From the NCBI GenBank assembly GCA_944325065.1, contig CALUYS010000001.1, forward strand, positions 161,439 to 225,438: a stretch of DNA of 64,000 nucleotides. Reading direction: 5' to 3'. Positions within the stretch are counted from its first letter, which is position 1. Each line of letters begins with the position of its first letter. The position numbers and the translations under genes are program-made. The notes beneath the pieces are model-generated. The model was given only the letters and a program-made list of their open reading frames with translations. It made no database searches and was not told where the DNA came from. This DNA is from Candidatus Gastranaerophilales bacterium (GTDB lineage: Bacteria; Cyanobacteriota; Vampirovibrionia; Gastranaerophilales; Gastranaerophilaceae). Positions 9,690-31,579 of this stretch are shown here, piece by piece.

Positions 9690-9882
9690 TATTTAATCCC
9701 CACTTAATCTTCTATAGTTTTACTCACTTTATTTAATTATATTATAACCATTTTTTTACGTAAAGAAATTTACTTAAATTTATTATTTTTTGTTAATTTA
9801 TTGTAAAATGATGTAAATCAAAACATTAAATTTATATTTTACAAAAAAAATGTTACAAATCTTCATACTAGGATTAAAATTA

Positions 9883-9916
9883 TTGGAATATTTTTTATTT
9901 AAGTGTAATCTATAAT
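9883..9916 (+). promoter_or_regulatory. Promoter abutting the start of the membrane regulator gene
   Basis: Two overlapping readings are possible. TTGGAA (9883-9888), 17 nt, TAATCT (9906-9911) would start transcription at about 9918-9919, virtually at the ATG 9921. A perfect TATAAT at 9911-9916 would start it a few bases inside, favouring the in-frame ATG at 9933. Either way the mRNA would be leaderless or nearly so. Confidence 0.45.
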
Positions 9917-9920
9917 AAAT

Positions 9921-11594
9921 ATGGAAAATGTTATGTTAAATAGAAATGATGCTACAATGTATAATAATATTGAAATAACAGCAAATGACTCACAGTTTGC
10001 TCAAAAATATACAATAAATATTGAGGATGAATTTTTAAGAAAAAAACTTTTTTATGCACTTTCAATTACTTCATCTTTAAAAAATTTTTTAAATAAAAAT
10101 GGCTTTTATTTTAATATTAATGATTCACTTTTTCAAATACCTCAAATTATTGAGAATTATGAATATGTTGATATTTATTCAAAAAATTTACCGATACAAA
10201 TTGCATATACATTTGAAAATGATATAGCTGTATCCATACCAAAAGTTCACTTTGAAGCATCTATTGAACCTAAAATGTATATTGTTGCTAAACTACATTC
10301 TAGCTTAACGACATTTGATTTAATTGGTACGATTAATACTAATTTTCTAAATAAAATAAATGAAAATAATAATTATATTTATGTCGATACAACAAGCCTA
10401 AATAACATCGATAATTTAGAAAATGATATTGATAAATTTATTGAAGATTATGAAATAATTAAAAATTGTGAAATTTTTAATCACGTTAAAACTAATTTTA
10501 TAAGTTTGATTGATAAAAATTTAACTGTAACAGAGATTGTTGATTTAATTAAACATTTATCAAAATGCCCTAAATGTCGTCAACAACTTTTATATTATTA
10601 TAAGTTTGAATCTATAATTCGCAATAGCAAAATTGAGAATGATTTGATAGATGAAATAGATAAATTTATAAATAATCCTAATTATGTACATATTAATGAT
10701 GAAAAAGTTAATATTAATGAAGAAGAAGATTTTAAAAGTAATGATGTACATAATAAATATAATTACGAAAATAAAGTAGAAAATGAAATTAATAAAGATG
10801 TTGTTAAAACTGAAGATGATTTAGAAAATAACTCTTATGAAAATAATTTTGAAGAAAATCAAGAAAAAAAACAAAATATTGATGAATTTCTCAACAGTAA
10901 TGTGAATGAACAAATCAATCAAACAAATTATGTTGAAACAACAACTACTGAAGATAATTCAAAATTAAATTTATTATATAACGAAAATCAAACAATTAAA
11001 GAAAATATTGACGAAATTGAAAATATTAATGAAAATAATTTATCAAAAACTAGTATAAGAAAAATTATTATTTTTCCTATCATTTCCATTCTTATGCTTA
11101 GTTTTTTAGGTTATTTGGGTTACACACAATATTTTAAGCAACAAGAAGGTTATAATGAAATAAATAATAAATATATTGTTCAAAATATTCCGCCTGAAAA
11201 TGCTCAAATAGATAATAAAAATGCTAAAACTCATGAAGTACTAGTTCCTCGTCCCTTAAAACTCTCTCAAATATCTTGGGAAGCACCTGAGATAGTTTTA
11301 AAAACGCCTATTTATAACAAATATCTAATCGATGTAGGGAAAAATCTTAAAATAAATTTACAAAATAAATTTATTGAATTAAAAGAAATGGTCTATCAAA
11401 CCAAGTTCCAATTACAAATATTAATTGATACAAATGGAAGTATTGCTGATATAAAAATAATTCAAGCTAGTGGGAATGAATTAATTGATGAACTCATTAT
11501 TTCAACAACAAGACAAACCTTAAATTATATAAAACCACCAATGGTCGATACAATAAAAGAACCATTAATTTTAATTTTAGAATTTGAATTTTAA
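9921..11594 (+). CDS. Membrane regulator: DUF1822-like N-terminus, zinc motif, TM helix, TonB-like C-terminus
   Basis: This 557-residue protein has four visible parts. Residues 20-150 resemble the DUF1822 proteins that accompany sigma-like factors in cyanobacteria (inference from pattern). Residues 200-225 contain His212-x3-Cys216-x2-Cys219, the spacing of the zinc anti-sigma (ZAS) motif. Residues 240-375 are an acidic, Asn/Glu-rich linker. A single membrane helix at about 380-402 precedes a periplasmic TonB C-terminal-like domain (about 470-557; motif LIDTNGSIADIKIIQASGN). The next gene, 51 nt downstream, encodes a sigma-like protein, so this is probably its membrane-bound anti-sigma. The start could be ATG 9921 or 9933, since a -10 box lies directly upstream. 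Confidence 0.75.
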   Translation: MENVMLNRNDATMYNNIEITANDSQFAQKYTINIEDEFLRKKLFYALSITSSLKNFLNKNGFYFNINDSLFQIPQIIENYEYVDIYSKNLPIQIAYTFENDIAVSIPKVHFEASIEPKMYIVAKLHSSLTTFDLIGTINTNFLNKINENNNYIYVDTTSLNNIDNLENDIDKFIEDYEIIKNCEIFNHVKTNFISLIDKNLTVTEIVDLIKHLSKCPKCRQQLLYYYKFESIIRNSKIENDLIDEIDKFINNPNYVHINDEKVNINEEEDFKSNDVHNKYNYENKVENEINKDVVKTEDDLENNSYENNFEENQEKKQNIDEFLNSNVNEQINQTNYVETTTTEDNSKLNLLYNENQTIKENIDEIENINENNLSKTSIRKIIIFPIISILMLSFLGYLGYTQYFKQQEGYNEINNKYIVQNIPPENAQIDNKNAKTHEVLVPRPLKLSQISWEAPEIVLKTPIYNKYLIDVGKNLKINLQNKFIELKEMVYQTKFQLQILIDTNGSIADIKIIQASGNELIDELIISTTRQTLNYIKPPMVDTIKEPLILILEFEF

Positions 11595-11645
11595 AATTTA
11601 TGTTATAATATAACAATATAAGGGTCAAATTATGGGGAATTGTAA

Positions 11646-12236
11646 ATGGTCACATCTTCAGCTATAGAAAATCAAGTTAAAATTATTCAACAATTAATTC
11701 GTAATAATGAAAAATTTATAGGAAATGAAGATTTATTTGAAGATTTTACAAATGAAGCATATTCAAAACTTCATGTTTTTATAAACTCAATAAAAGACTT
11801 AACAAAAATAGAAGGTTATGCATCTAAAATAGTAAACACATCTATGCTTTCTGTTCTAAAACGTAAAGAACGTTTAAAACGTATAAATCCAAATTTCGTA
11901 TCGATTAAAACAACACCTATTGATGTATCAAATGTTAACGAAGTTATTAAAAATTCTGATTTAAAATATGAAGATAAAATAATATATGAACTTATTGACC
12001 CAAGATTTTCTTATATATCAAAAACTGAAGATAAAGAACTTTTAAAATCGATTTTAAATTCAGTTATTTCGATTAATAAAGATTATCCAAATGAACAATA
12101 TTTAAAATTATATAAACTTCGTTTTATCAACAAAAAAACTCAAAATCAAATATCCTTTGAATTAAACATTTCTCAGGATGAGGTTTCAAAACGTTTATTA
12201 GATTTAGAAAATTTAGTCAAAGTATATATAAATTAG
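11646..12236 (+). CDS. Divergent sigma-70-like (ECF-type) transcription factor
   Basis: This 196-residue protein has a weak region-2-like helical part (about residues 25-100, including EGYASKIVNTSMLSVLKRKE) and a C-terminal region-4-like helix-turn-helix (about 145-190, around KKTQNQISFELNISQDEVS). The size and layout fit an ECF sigma factor, though region 2 is poorly conserved. It follows the membrane regulator with ZAS-like motif by 51 nt, and GGGGA lies seven bases before the ATG. I infer a sigma/anti-sigma pair. It could instead be a non-sigma HTH regulator that shares the fold. The target promoters are unknown. Confidence 0.6.
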   Translation: MVTSSAIENQVKIIQQLIRNNEKFIGNEDLFEDFTNEAYSKLHVFINSIKDLTKIEGYASKIVNTSMLSVLKRKERLKRINPNFVSIKTTPIDVSNVNEVIKNSDLKYEDKIIYELIDPRFSYISKTEDKELLKSILNSVISINKDYPNEQYLKLYKLRFINKKTQNQISFELNISQDEVSKRLLDLENLVKVYIN

Positions 12237-12327: not shown

Positions 12328-12726
12328 ATGAGTAAAAAGTTAACTAATTTATTATTGGTTCAAATAGCATTAATTTTAATTGGAAGTAATATAGCATATG
12401 CTGATGGTATGTCACTTGAACCAATAGGTGTTGAATCGACTTATAATGTACCTGCTATAAAAAATGTTTCATCAAATACAACAAAATCAGGTAGTGTTCG
12501 ACAAACTGATAATTTTCAAAGTGCTTTATTCAAACTTGATTCAGCACAAGTTGAAATGAGAAATAATTTAGTTGATTTAAAAACTAAATATCAAGATGTT
12601 GACTCAAAATATCAACTTATAAAACAAGAACGTCAATTGTTGAAAAATGAAGTTAAAGCTTTGGAAAAACGAATAAAAAATATTGATAAAACTAAAGAAA
12701 ATATACGCAAAAATATGGGTGAATAA
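12328..12726 (+). CDS. Secreted coiled-coil protein
   Basis: This 132-residue protein has a Sec signal peptide (residues 1-25, cleavage likely after AYA), a Ser/Thr/Asn-rich linker (about 26-68), and a C-terminal coiled coil (about 70-125) with heptads such as LLKNEVKALEKRIKNIDK. No cysteine is present and no further domain is recognised. It has its own strong promoter and ribosome site, so it may be abundant in the periplasm. Short signal-plus-coiled-coil proteins include SlyB/OmpH-like chaperones and Lpp-type tethers, but nothing specific links it to these. It converges on the following gene with a 3-nt gap. Confidence 0.8.
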   Translation: MSKKLTNLLLVQIALILIGSNIAYADGMSLEPIGVESTYNVPAIKNVSSNTTKSGSVRQTDNFQSALFKLDSAQVEMRNNLVDLKTKYQDVDSKYQLIKQERQLLKNEVKALEKRIKNIDKTKENIRKNMGE

Positions 12727-12729
12727 TTT

Positions 12730-15700
12730 TTATAAATTTGCTTGATTTATAATATTATTAATTTGTTTATCAAATGCTGTAATATTACGTGATTTTACTT
12801 TTGCAATAACCTGATTTAAAATATACATACCTTTTTCTTTTGTTTGAGGATTAATAATATATATTCTTGATAAAAGAATTTTAAAGTTGATGGTTAGTAT
12901 AATTAGTGTGTCATCAACTTTTTCAATATCTGGAAATATCTCAAGTATTAAGGACTTAGCTTCTTCAAGTTTATTATTATTTACTTTATTTAACGCACTT
13001 AAATAAAATGCAAGTAAATTTATATTTAATAGACCAAATTGATTGGATTTATCAATAACATCCATAAGAATATTATCAGTAATATTATGATTTCCAGCAT
13101 TACTATGTAACATCGCAGCCACCAAATCAAGAATATAATTTAAACTTATGCTATCTATTTGTCTTGCAAGTTCTTTTGTTTCATTTATTATCTGAGAATT
13201 ATTAATAGAATTTGATGTTGAATAATCTAAAACAATTCGATATAAATTTGTTAAAATTTTTCCAATAGGTGTTTTAATATTACTTGCTATTTTTGCAAAG
13301 TCATTATTCAAAGTTCCTGTCATAAATAAATTTTCAATTAAATATAACAAATTAAATTCATCAGTATTTCCGCTGTAAAATGCTTTAACTTTATCTATTT
13401 TTTCATTTAAATCATCTTTTAAGCTAAGAATAGATTCAAGAAGATAATATATAATACATATATTTAATATTCTATGATAATTTTTTCTTCCCCCAAAGGC
13501 ATCATAGGCTTTTTCTTGGTTATCTACATTTAAATTAATAATGACATCTTCAAATATCTTAGAAGAAGCCTCAATTTGACCTAATTCAAATAATATTTCA
13601 ACTTTTTTTAATACTAAAAGAAACATATTTGGATTAAAGTTAATAGAGGACATATTATAATCTTTATTTACCATACGAGCCAATACTTCATTTAGATAGA
13701 CGTAAGAGTCATAATAATTTTTTAAACTATAGCAGGTGTTATAAGCAAAATAATATAATGTTCTTACTAAATCTACATTATCACTATTTTTAAAACGATT
13801 TATAGCCTGTTCAAGAACATCAACTATAAGTTCCGGATTCTTAATAAAACAAGTTGAAATTAAACTTAACATAATATTATTAATTGCTGCATCATTTTCA
13901 CTTATATTTTGTTCTTCCAAACCAAACATAAATTCTTTTTGTAAACGAGCGAATATAGAATAATCTCCAAATGATAAACCAACTGTAGAAACATGTTCAA
14001 GACCGTTATAATAAAAATCATCACCTTTGTCAAACATAATAGGATGAAAAGGTGGTAAATACATTTTAAATTTTTCAATTTGTTTTTTACGATTTATAAT
14101 TTCAGGATATTCATTTTGAATATGCTTAATAAGTTTTTGATAATATTTTTGATTGGCAACATAAACGATATCATCTCTAATAGTTATAAAATCTCTATCT
14201 TCAAGTAACATCAAAAAACGTTCTTCTTTTACACCGAATCCTCTTAAGTAAGCTTTACGAATACCAAATTGAGCAAACAACAAAAATACCCATACTTCAA
14301 AAAATTCATTCATTTTTGCAAGATATAAAATTTTGGTAAATAATAAGTTATTAATAGATGATGGAATTTTTACAAAATTACTTTCATCAAAAAACCATTT
14401 ACCTTCCATAAAAGTTAGAACATTTGTCTCACGAAAATATTGCATCAAATTTTTCATATAAAATTTTGATTTTTGTATTTCATTTTTTAATTTAGGTAAA
14501 TAATATTGTATACCTTCAATATCATTTAATAAAAATTCTTTTGCTAAATCATCAAAATCATCTGAAACTAAATCAAAATGAAATACATTTTCCTTATTTA
14601 ACAAACTTGGTAAAATATTAAAAAACTTACATCCATTATTAATTGAAAATAATATATTAAAGTTATACTTAGCTTTTACTTCAAATAATTTTTTAAAAAT
14701 TTTTAATGAACCTTCATCTACAAAATTAAAATCATCAATCATTATCATATAGTTATTATTTATTTGTACAAAAAAATCAATTATTTTTGAAAGTAAAGTC
14801 TCATAATTTTTATCAAAATTATCATTTTCATAAGGCATTAAATTTAAAATTGATTTTATATGTTCATCAATACCTTCCAATTTTTGAGGCATTGAGAATG
14901 CTTCTATTTCTGTTAATTTATAATAAGTTTTTATTATTTCTCTTATTGTATAAAAAGGAAATCTTGGATTATTTTTATAACATTGTACTTTAATGATGTT
15001 TTTTTTACTTAATTCATCGAAAAAAATATTATCAATACTACCTAAATGATTAGGGTATTTTAGAATAAATATATTACCTGAATTAGTTTCTTTGATTTTA
15101 TTTTCAATAAAATCACATATTTTAACCGAACCCAAACGAAGAAAACTTGCTTTCGTTTCAAATATTTTAACTTGATTATTTATTATATTTTCATTAAATT
15201 CACTATTTTTTTGAATTTTTTGTGGAATTTTTATAAAATCATCTGAAACTTTTTCAACATCTTTAACTTTAGATAATTTTAAATTTAACAGATGTTTAAT
15301 AATTAGAAGATAGAAACTACATCTTTTATTTTTAATTAAAATATTTTCATAAGATGTCACTTTATATTTATCAATAATATCTATATATATTTTTTTATCA
15401 AGTAAAATCTTAATTTGAGAATAAGCAGAAGTTTTATCTTCAACAACATTTAATTGTGCTAAATCTTTTATTTTTTCTATAGCATCTGTTTTATTATCAC
15501 TAGTTAAATTCATATAAAACTTGATATATTTACCTTTTAATTTATAGAAATCGACATTAATATCCATAAGTTTTTGAGAAAACTTAACAACAAAATCTAA
15601 AGCATTTAAATATAAATGCTTATCAGCAAAAATAGTTGTAAAAATAAAAAGGATTATACCCTTACCACTTTTTGAGGATACTTTTACACCATCTAAAACA

Positions 15701-15843
15701 ATATTTTGTCCTAATGAAACAAATTTATTTACCATTTTTACAGCTTGTTGTTCATTTTTCAACAAACCTGAAACTTCTTTGTAATTGCCTATTCTAAGAT
15801 ATAAATAAAGTTTCTTTTTTAAAGAATTTCCAATATTTGCCAT
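12730..15843 (-). CDS. Large AAA_16/STAND-like protein with degenerate P-loop
   Basis: This 1037-residue cytoplasmic protein has an alpha-helical N-terminus (about 1-240), an ATPase-like middle (about 250-600) and a TPR-like helical C-terminus (about 650-1037). The middle has the pattern of AAA_16/MalT-type signalling ATPases: a strand NIFILKYP at 257-264, PFYTIREIIKTYY at 296-308, and a Walker B-like YMIMIDDFNFVDEGSL at 365-380. The Walker A position reads YPNHLGSIDN, with no Gly-Lys-Ser/Thr, so ATP binding is probably lost. No output domain (cyclase, HTH, kinase) is seen. It lies 44 nt downstream of secA and may be co-transcribed. Its function is unknown; a scaffold role is a guess. Confidence 0.7.
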   Translation of the reverse strand: MANIGNSLKKKLYLYLRIGNYKEVSGLLKNEQQAVKMVNKFVSLGQNIVLDGVKVSSKSGKGIILFIFTTIFADKHLYLNALDFVVKFSQKLMDINVDFYKLKGKYIKFYMNLTSDNKTDAIEKIKDLAQLNVVEDKTSAYSQIKILLDKKIYIDIIDKYKVTSYENILIKNKRCSFYLLIIKHLLNLKLSKVKDVEKVSDDFIKIPQKIQKNSEFNENIINNQVKIFETKASFLRLGSVKICDFIENKIKETNSGNIFILKYPNHLGSIDNIFFDELSKKNIIKVQCYKNNPRFPFYTIREIIKTYYKLTEIEAFSMPQKLEGIDEHIKSILNLMPYENDNFDKNYETLLSKIIDFFVQINNNYMIMIDDFNFVDEGSLKIFKKLFEVKAKYNFNILFSINNGCKFFNILPSLLNKENVFHFDLVSDDFDDLAKEFLLNDIEGIQYYLPKLKNEIQKSKFYMKNLMQYFRETNVLTFMEGKWFFDESNFVKIPSSINNLLFTKILYLAKMNEFFEVWVFLLFAQFGIRKAYLRGFGVKEERFLMLLEDRDFITIRDDIVYVANQKYYQKLIKHIQNEYPEIINRKKQIEKFKMYLPPFHPIMFDKGDDFYYNGLEHVSTVGLSFGDYSIFARLQKEFMFGLEEQNISENDAAINNIMLSLISTCFIKNPELIVDVLEQAINRFKNSDNVDLVRTLYYFAYNTCYSLKNYYDSYVYLNEVLARMVNKDYNMSSINFNPNMFLLVLKKVEILFELGQIEASSKIFEDVIINLNVDNQEKAYDAFGGRKNYHRILNICIIYYLLESILSLKDDLNEKIDKVKAFYSGNTDEFNLLYLIENLFMTGTLNNDFAKIASNIKTPIGKILTNLYRIVLDYSTSNSINNSQIINETKELARQIDSISLNYILDLVAAMLHSNAGNHNITDNILMDVIDKSNQFGLLNINLLAFYLSALNKVNNNKLEEAKSLILEIFPDIEKVDDTLIILTINFKILLSRIYIINPQTKEKGMYILNQVIAKVKSRNITAFDKQINNIINQANL

Positions 15844-30659: not shown

Positions 30660-30866
30660 ATGATAGTAAAAATAAATGGTAAATTAGAAAATATTAATGA
30701 TAATATTAATACACTTTCTCAACTTATCGAAAGTTTGAATGACAAACTTCCAAAATTATTTGCTATTGAAAAAAATGGTAAAATAATATATAAAGAAAAT
30801 TATGATGATGAATCTATTAATAATAACGATCAAATAGAAATCGTGATGTTTTGTGGTGGTGGTTAA
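30660..30866 (+). CDS. thiS: ThiS-like sulfur carrier protein
   Basis: This small ubiquitin-fold protein of 68 residues has the ThiS pattern: MIVKINGKLENI at the start and an FCGGG C-terminus. In ThiS the terminal glycine is thiocarboxylated and donates sulfur to thiazole synthesis with ThiG. Here the tail is Gly-Gly-Gly, one glycine longer than usual. I choose ATG 30660 (AAAGGTGG lies nine bases upstream) over the GTG at 30648. No thiG, thiF or other thiamine gene is in the window, so its partner must be elsewhere. It overlaps the response regulator gene by 4 bp. Confidence 0.8.
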   Translation: MIVKINGKLENINDNINTLSQLIESLNDKLPKLFAIEKNGKIIYKENYDDESINNNDQIEIVMFCGGG

Positions 30867-31579
30867 TTTTTATTACATACACCTTCTGGCATAAGTTTAT
30901 AACCACCACCATATACTGTTTGTATATATTTTTTACCATTTGAAATTTTATCCAATTTTGAACGTAAATGACGGATGTGAACACGTATTGTTTCTACATC
31001 ATCATCTTCTTGATAACCCCATATTTCCTTTAAAAGTCTTGATGATGAAACCATACATCCATGATTTTGAACAAGTATATTTAATATATCAAATTCAATT
31101 GGAGTTAACTTTGTTTTTTTATCAAAAATTTTAACCTCATATGACTCATTTAACAAAATTATATCTCCAATAGTTGATATTTCCTTAATAACAACAGATG
31201 TTGGAATAGAATGAGTTCGTTTTAGAAGAGCTTTAACACGAACAATCAATTCTTCCATTTCAAATGGTTTTACTAAATAATCATCAACACCAATATTAAA
31301 TCCTTGAATTTTGTTCTTTAAAAAACCTAAAGCTGTTAACATCAGAATAGGTATATTTTCTAAATTTTTATTTTCCCTTATTCTTTTTGCAACAGTATAT
31401 CCATCAATACTTGGCATCATAACATCAAGAATTATTAAATCAGGCATTTCTTGTTTACAAAGAGCAAAACCAACAGTCCCTTCGTAAGCTTGGATAACAT
31501 CAAATCCTGACAATTCAAGATTTATTTTTATTAACTCATTTATCGATTCATCATCATCTATAACTAAAATTTTATTCAT
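30863..31579 (-). CDS. OmpR-family response regulator, RpaA/RpaB-like
   Basis: Two-component DNA-binding regulator, 238 residues. The receiver domain (1-120) has Asp8, Asp9, the phospho-acceptor Asp52 in ILDVMMPSIDG and Lys104 in LVKPFE. The C-terminal winged helix (about 135-232) has TPIEFDILNIL and YIQTVYGGGYKL. Among cyanobacteria the closest pattern is RpaA/RpaB, but which one cannot be told. No histidine kinase is adjacent. It is last in the minus-strand translation cluster, 19 nt after the HicB-like gene. Confidence 0.93.
   Translation of the reverse strand: MNKILVIDDDESINELIKINLELSGFDVIQAYEGTVGFALCKQEMPDLIILDVMMPSIDGYTVAKRIRENKNLENIPILMLTALGFLKNKIQGFNIGVDDYLVKPFEMEELIVRVKALLKRTHSIPTSVVIKEISTIGDIILLNESYEVKIFDKKTKLTPIEFDILNILVQNHGCMVSSSRLLKEIWGYQEDDDVETIRVHIRHLRSKLDKISNGKKYIQTVYGGGYKLMPEGVCNKN

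Follow-up and report, generated by a model that had tools for sequence, protein, structure and literature searches.

Is the membrane protein encoded at this locus, which joins an anti-sigma-like domain on the cytoplasmic side of a membrane helix to a TonB/TolA-type domain in the periplasm, the regulator of the sigma factor encoded directly downstream of it? The two genes, referred to here as mem and sig, lie in the genome of a Gastranaerophilales bacterium (1.86 Mb, 37 contigs), from which a stretch of 64,000 nucleotides, referred to as the window, was analysed and supplies the coordinates used below (Table 1). The answer that we favour, with a probability of roughly 0.72, is that the operon is an envelope-responsive switch, in which mem would serve as a class I anti-sigma factor of sig, sig would direct transcription of its own operon from the promoter GGAATATTTT-N9-TGYNNTCTWW, and the TonB/TolA-type domain would be the sensor.

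Table 1. Features of the mem-sig locus in window coordinates.
Feature	Position	Strand	Basis
Degenerate RpaB (HLR1-type) box GTTACAAATCTTCATACT	9852-9869	+	3 mismatches to KTTACAWWNNKTTACAWW; 15 nt upstream of -35
ECF-type promoter GGAATATTTT-N9-TGTAA-TCTAT (-35 GGAATA, -10 TCTATA)	9885-9913	+	0 mismatches
mem, membrane anti-sigma-like protein, 557 aa	9921-11594	+	ORF listing, AlphaFold, comparison with relatives
DUF1822-homologous N-terminal domain of mem (residues about 16-180)	9966-10460	+	PF08852 in relatives; high-confidence fold
Class I anti-sigma (ZAS/ASDI) domain of mem, four helices (residues 186-251)	10476-10673	+	AlphaFold, profile comparisons
Zinc ligands H212, C216, C219 of mem	10554-10577	+	Sequence HLSKCPKC from residue 212
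Acidic cytoplasmic linker of mem, predicted disordered (residues 252-378)	10674-11054	+	AlphaFold pLDDT about 30-40
Single transmembrane helix of mem (residues 379-406), positive charge on N-terminal side	11055-11138	+	Hydrophobicity, AlphaFold
Periplasmic TonB/TolA C-terminal domain of mem (residues 450-556)	11268-11588	+	PF13103 above gathering score; AlphaFold, Foldseek
sig, ECF-type sigma factor, 196 aa	11646-12236	+	TIGR02937, family members, fold
132-aa protein, signal-like N-terminus and coiled coil	12328-12726	+	Profile search, locus comparison
Decayed, inverted counterpart of the third gene	12730-15843	-	hhalign probability 95, hmmsearch E 1.4e-11

Organization and Conservation of the Locus

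Both open reading frames are located exactly where the initial annotation had placed them, with 51 nt between them. Every element of the locus is conserved across genera, and for this reason none looks like the product of chance. Among 146 genomes of the family, homologues of sig were found in 130 and homologues of mem (profile A1) in 136; both genes are present in 127 and neither in 7, an association (Fisher p 4.7e-6) to be read with the non-independence of related genomes in mind. In the genera sampled, sig comes immediately 3' of mem, and the pair is followed by a gene encoding a protein of roughly 1000-1300 aa. The same arrangement was seen when a named collection was searched with a query derived from mem: among the best 80 relatives, mem precedes sig in 74/74 complete loci with a gap of 0-40 nt, and the third gene is present in 73. 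Most sequences of this set carry the label Candidatus Gastranaerophilales or Melainabacteria; the others are uncultured bacteria, Candidatus Scatousia, and one unnamed cyanobacterium, apart from two labelled Fusobacterium and Brachyspira that are taken to be mislabelled. Three further families of the order (L149, L150, and L151) also have mem and sig side by side, in two of them (L149 and L151) with no adjoining third gene. On these comparisons the pair is order-wide in the Gastranaerophilales, and the joint conservation of the two genes, on which the original proposal had depended, is borne out by linkage and co-occurrence alike.

In most genera the third gene lies on the same strand as the pair, and its product combines double zinc ribbons with AAA_16 and TPR domains. 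The decayed counterpart in the window contains neither a P-loop motif nor zinc ribbons. Between sig and this inverted gene lies the gene for the 132-aa protein, which is found in the window genus only among the loci compared. A search of the window proteins with PADLOC returned no defence-system matches, and a defence-system identity was dropped; the third gene of one relative gave two marginal matches.

Several lineages depart from this organization. Genera g3, g21, g26, g36, g37, and g39 form a sub-clade in which mem is not linked to sig; where sig was recognised, it is encoded at another locus, and g26 for the most part lacks a recognised sigma partner. In g17 (L048, L088; genomes G052, G079, G104, G124, and G143), mem appears to be split into a DUF1822-ZAS protein of roughly 304 aa and a separate TM-TonB protein, of which L048 shows both open reading frames and the other genomes short N-terminal ones. 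At four loci from another family of the class (L152-L154 and L158), a DUF1822-like protein of about 400 aa is encoded next to a gene for roughly 480 aa; no recognised sigma neighbour was found there, and zinc-ribbon-type genes are mostly nearby.

Cytoplasmic Domains of mem

The DUF1822-like N-terminus read from the window by the initial annotation holds through relatives, though the window protein itself gives no direct match to PF08852. This profile is matched by 29/31 aligned family members (best 9.3e-17), and relatives of mem pass the curated DUF1822 cut-off with scores of up to 47.8 bits against 25. In the AlphaFold model the domain has a weak structural similarity, detected with Foldseek, to archaeal Holliday junction resolvases and Hjc-type nucleases. 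The Hjc-like PD-(D/E)XK region corresponds to residues 84-95 (10170-10205), where relatives keep D84 and D-x-R and some cyanobacterial members have E-C-R. The window protein has Q-I-A at these residues, and nuclease catalysis by its DUF1822 domain is therefore unlikely.

Behind this domain, AlphaFold predicts four consecutive helices at residues 186-251, and weak matches to anti-sigma profiles of Pfam and NCBIfam fall at residues 193-235. The zf-HC2 profile gives E 0.28 for the window protein and 5.8e-7 for the best relative, and the mem family profile matches Bacillus subtilis RsiW in the PDB (E 8.7e-4). Searches with the mem profile also recovered small ZAS proteins whose genes adjoin ordinary ECF sigma genes, with E-values down to 1.4e-12 in relatives. 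Ordinary pairs of this kind, an ECF sigma factor with a small ZAS anti-sigma factor, were observed at L133-L136, L155-L157, and L159, which belong to relatives and to a distant family of the class.

The ZAS motif had been described as H212-x3-C216-x2-C219, which is correct for the window, but the first ligand histidine is displaced and the motif is missing from a large derived clade. The spacing is H-x25-H-x3-C-x2-C in zinc-type relatives from other genera, as against H-x23-H-x3-C-x2-C in the window genus. No zinc motif is present in 25/50 mem proteins compared. In a tree built by a quick method with the motif columns left out, and containing several long branches, most zinc-less proteins form one clade, with the zinc form on both sides of it, other families included. 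Since zinc-bearing proteins flank the zinc-less clade, the motif is most simply taken to be ancestral and lost in one large clade; and because the ligands have been lost in many genera, zinc is not essential.

Loss of the ligands bears on which part of mem might contact the sigma factor. It could be that DUF1822, rather than the ZAS domain, contacts and controls sig, with the ZAS fold vestigial in most genera, a reading that would accommodate both the zinc-less clade and the fact that sigma genes are accompanied by DUF1822 genes in cyanobacteria. We think this unlikely: even where the cysteines are gone, R220 and the ZAS helices have been retained, and zinc and zinc-free forms of the ASDI are mixed within groups, zinc-free forms being common among known anti-sigma factors (PMC7406223). 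ASDIs are reported to contact sigma4 through helix 1 and sigma2 through helix 4, and to have any extra domains usually on their C-terminal side (PMC7406223). The four-helix domain of mem, preceded by DUF1822, remains in our view the probable contact with sig.

The acidic linker that follows is far longer in relatives, in which the length of the whole protein reaches 1365 aa. It leads into the one membrane helix that had been recognised from the window sequence and that was recovered as a hydrophobic helix at about the residues listed in Table 1; the median net charge before this helix is +3.

The Sigma Factor and Its Promoter

The product of sig consists of a sigma2 domain at about residues 4-80 and a sigma4 domain at about residues 130-195. 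It matches TIGR02937 with E 8.8e-11, its 41.7 bits falling just below the 42.9 cut-off, and matches Sigma70_r4 alone weakly; among 41 members of the sig family, 38 match TIGR02937 (E <= 0.01), the best at 1.4e-20. In the predicted structure the sigma2 and sigma4 helices are of high confidence and the linker between them is loose. The top PDB neighbours of the model are the ECF sigma factors SigH, sigmaE, AlgU, and SigW, which align across sigma2 and sigma4 and several of which come from complexes with anti-sigma factors. E-values of about 0.005-0.2 and overall TM-scores of about 0.3 for these neighbours are attributable to a different placement of the two domains in the model. The annotated sigma-like factor with a region-4-like helix-turn-helix is thus predicted to have a complete sigma2 and sigma4 fold, and with these two domains only, in about 190 aa, sig is of the ECF (group 4) type.

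Comparison of the regions upstream of mem yielded the consensus GGAATATTTT-N9-TGYNNTCTWW. Sites for sigmaE-type factors have the form GGAACTT/TCTAA, which the mem promoter resembles. The window promoter is the only perfect match to the consensus in its own genome, and across 142 family genomes 54/57 perfect matches lie upstream of mem; of the three others, one comes from a genome that is 57% complete and yielded no mem. Among the best 80 relatives the promoter was found with <=1 mismatch in 75/80 loci and with <=2 mismatches in 79/80. Because the consensus was derived from these same upstream regions, matches there are expected, and the informative observations are its near-absence elsewhere and its conservation. 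When two mismatches were allowed in a search of the window's own genome, 11 matches were obtained as against 6 in the control. A wide regulon was accordingly rejected, perfect matches being confined to the operon and no further members being detectable. A site with one mismatch at C21:10665 stands in front of a repeat-rich region.

Concentration of perfect matches at this one operon (54 of 57) suggests that the operon may be autoregulated and that the regulon is very small. Alternatively, a different sigma factor may recognise the conserved promoter, and the operon would then be controlled from outside instead of activating itself; candidates for such a factor exist in the further sigma-like genes of relatives and of the window's own genome. 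Several observations make this quite improbable. The promoter is near-unique to the operon and its ECF-like -35/-10 architecture fits a dedicated sigma factor, as does the persistence of a promoter variant in the sub-clade in which the two genes are unlinked, where, as judged by eye, the promoter retained by mem is related, its -35 being TTGAAA-like and its -10 region similar.

In the window the -10 region ends 7 nt upstream of the ATG at 9921, and the transcript would be nearly leaderless (9913-9957). An in-frame ATG at 9957, corresponding to M13 of mem, is conserved in a protein of the same genus and, given this short distance, may be the real start of mem in place of 9921.

RpaB and the HLR1 Box

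RpaB and its HLR1 site are known from light stress in cyanobacteria. A scan with KTTACAWWNNKTTACAWW, the degenerate consensus of the HLR1 direct repeat, found the box with <=1 mismatch in 77/80 core-clade loci and in 0/80 shuffled controls; in 77/79 loci the gap between box and -35 is exactly 6 nt. The window box is more degenerate; the box of a locus of the same genus (L031) has 1 mismatch, and its gap to the -35 is also 15 nt. The window's own genome encodes an RpaB orthologue (L203, G000:C3:106179-106412) with 147/211 residues identical to a cyanobacterial RpaB-like protein, which was identified by its hallmark sequence. A further relative of the cyanobacterial circuits was observed within the window, at 30863-31579 on the minus strand, where an OmpR-type response regulator is encoded whose closest relative is a cyanobacterial RpaA-like protein (L207), in a genome that is non-photosynthetic; RpaA is a circadian output regulator. 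In cyanobacteria, HLR1 mediates repression by RpaB when it lies inside the core promoter and activation when it lies upstream of the core promoter (PMC6331805). The mem operon is a putative target of RpaB in the core clade, with a degenerate box in the window, and the direction of that control is inferred.

The TonB/TolA-Type Periplasmic Domain

The C-terminal domain of mem scores 22.3 bits against PF13103 (gathering score 22) and 20.2 bits against PF03544, under the cut-off of 24.6. AlphaFold gives a confident TonB C-terminal fold at residues 450-556, for which the best PDB match is the C-terminal domain of Helicobacter pylori TonB, with TolA also listed, and the TonB C-terminal-like domain of the initial annotation is in this way confirmed at the level of predicted structure. 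The papers searched contained no description of an anti-sigma factor that carries a TonB/TolA fold in the periplasm.

This genuine TonB/TolA fold behind one membrane helix, together with the presence of ExbD genes in 20/20 genomes searched, raises the alternative that mem is a TonB/TolA-type transducer driven by ExbB/ExbD, equipped with a cytoplasmic extension, and that the adjoining sigma factor is regulatory and not a partner. The membrane helix of TonB carries the histidine of the SHLS motif. Unlike it, the transmembrane segments of mem proteins contain no histidine in 46/47 cases, that of the window among them, and the linker of mem is acidic rather than proline-rich. The window's own genome has a separate TonB-like protein of roughly 400 aa, clustered with an ExbB-like gene and two ExbD genes (L145, 1375-4809, on contig C4). 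Given this separate gene and the lack of a transmembrane histidine, energy transduction by mem is unlikely, and mem was rejected as the cell's own TonB. The window's own genome yielded no plug domain of a TonB-dependent receptor, and a transducer would leave the ZAS domain, which TonB and TolA lack along with DUF1822, without a role. Taken together, we regard the transducer as very improbable.

Cell-surface signalling of the FecI/FecR type, in which the periplasmic domain would touch a TonB-dependent receptor, shares with this locus a sigma factor paired with a single-TM, anti-sigma-like protein that has a periplasmic domain, but as a reading of the "TonB-like sensor" it is scarcely credible and was rejected, since the receptor plug domain is absent from the window's own genome (and present in only 4/20 relatives) and the window proteins have no FecR match in Pfam or NCBIfam.

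Comparison with Known Systems

Among the known systems closest to the proposed switch are the class I ZAS/ASDI pairs such as SigW-RsiW and sigmaE-RseA, which likewise consist of an ECF sigma factor with sigma2 and sigma4 only and a co-encoded single-TM protein with an ASDI/Hx3Cx2C domain, under an ECF-like operon promoter. In contrast to their anti-sigma factors, mem has DUF1822 N-terminal to the ASDI, a long acidic linker, and a TonB/TolA-type periplasmic domain, and its operon differs in placing the anti-sigma gene first, in the third gene for a zinc-ribbon/AAA/TPR protein, and in the RpaB box. The cyanobacterial SigG-SapG system (reviewed in PMC2758279), which is likened here by description, also comprises an ECF-like sigma factor and a cotranscribed interacting regulator, but sapG lies downstream of sigG.

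In cyanobacteria, an association of DUF1822 with ECF sigma factors has been mentioned (PMC8195603). At 16 of 30 cyanobacterial DUF1822 loci, the family profile recognised a sigma-like open reading frame adjoining on the 5' side; other loci have a more divergent one in that position (L115, TIGR02937 4.1e-10). The pairing, which had been noted as cyanobacterial and here reversed in order, is thus confirmed, the sigma gene lying directly 5' of DUF1822 in cyanobacteria. CHAT or CHASE2 domains are encoded by the gene after DUF1822 in 3/3 cases examined. These clusters resemble the mem operon in the pairing of DUF1822 with a sigma factor and in a large third gene of STAND- or CHAT-like type, and differ in that sigma comes first and the third gene is of CHAT type as opposed to AAA_16; the cyanobacterial proteins were compared by DUF1822 homology alone. 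We offer tentatively, and with some doubt, the suggestion that DUF1822 is a phylum-wide sigma-regulating module and that one three-gene cassette of sigma factor, DUF1822 regulator, and STAND/CHAT effector exists in two versions, the mem operon and the sigma-DUF1822-CHAT clusters of cyanobacteria. In the Gastranaerophilales the cassette may have gained an anti-sigma domain, a membrane helix, and a TonB domain, which would have connected it to the envelope, with RpaB control retained.

Proposed Mechanism and Significance

In the proposed switch, the four-helix ZAS/ASDI domain of mem, preceded by DUF1822, would bind sig in the cytoplasm and bar it from RNA polymerase, and the periplasmic TonB/TolA-type domain would receive a signal from the envelope. 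The signal would inactivate mem, and the freed sig would transcribe its own operon from the conserved promoter, leading to more sig, more mem, and, in most genera, more of the zinc-ribbon/AAA/TPR protein as the presumed main output. A second input to the same promoter would come, in the core clade, from RpaB through the HLR1 box 6 nt upstream of the -35. As mem is split in g17, the signal need not run along one chain and may pass through an interaction. We judge the combination of parts to be new and the principle to be known, the system being a variant of ECF sigma factors with class I anti-sigma factors.

For the Gastranaerophilales, a large and mostly uncultured gut lineage in which regulation has been little studied, this would give DUF1822 a first testable function, the control of a sigma factor. 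A periplasmic TonB/TolA fold is found attached to an apparent anti-sigma factor, and a non-photosynthetic relative of the cyanobacteria appears to have kept one of their regulatory circuits, that of RpaB and its HLR1 box, and to have joined it to an ECF operon. The specificity of the promoter makes the system testable in Escherichia coli by means of a small reporter.
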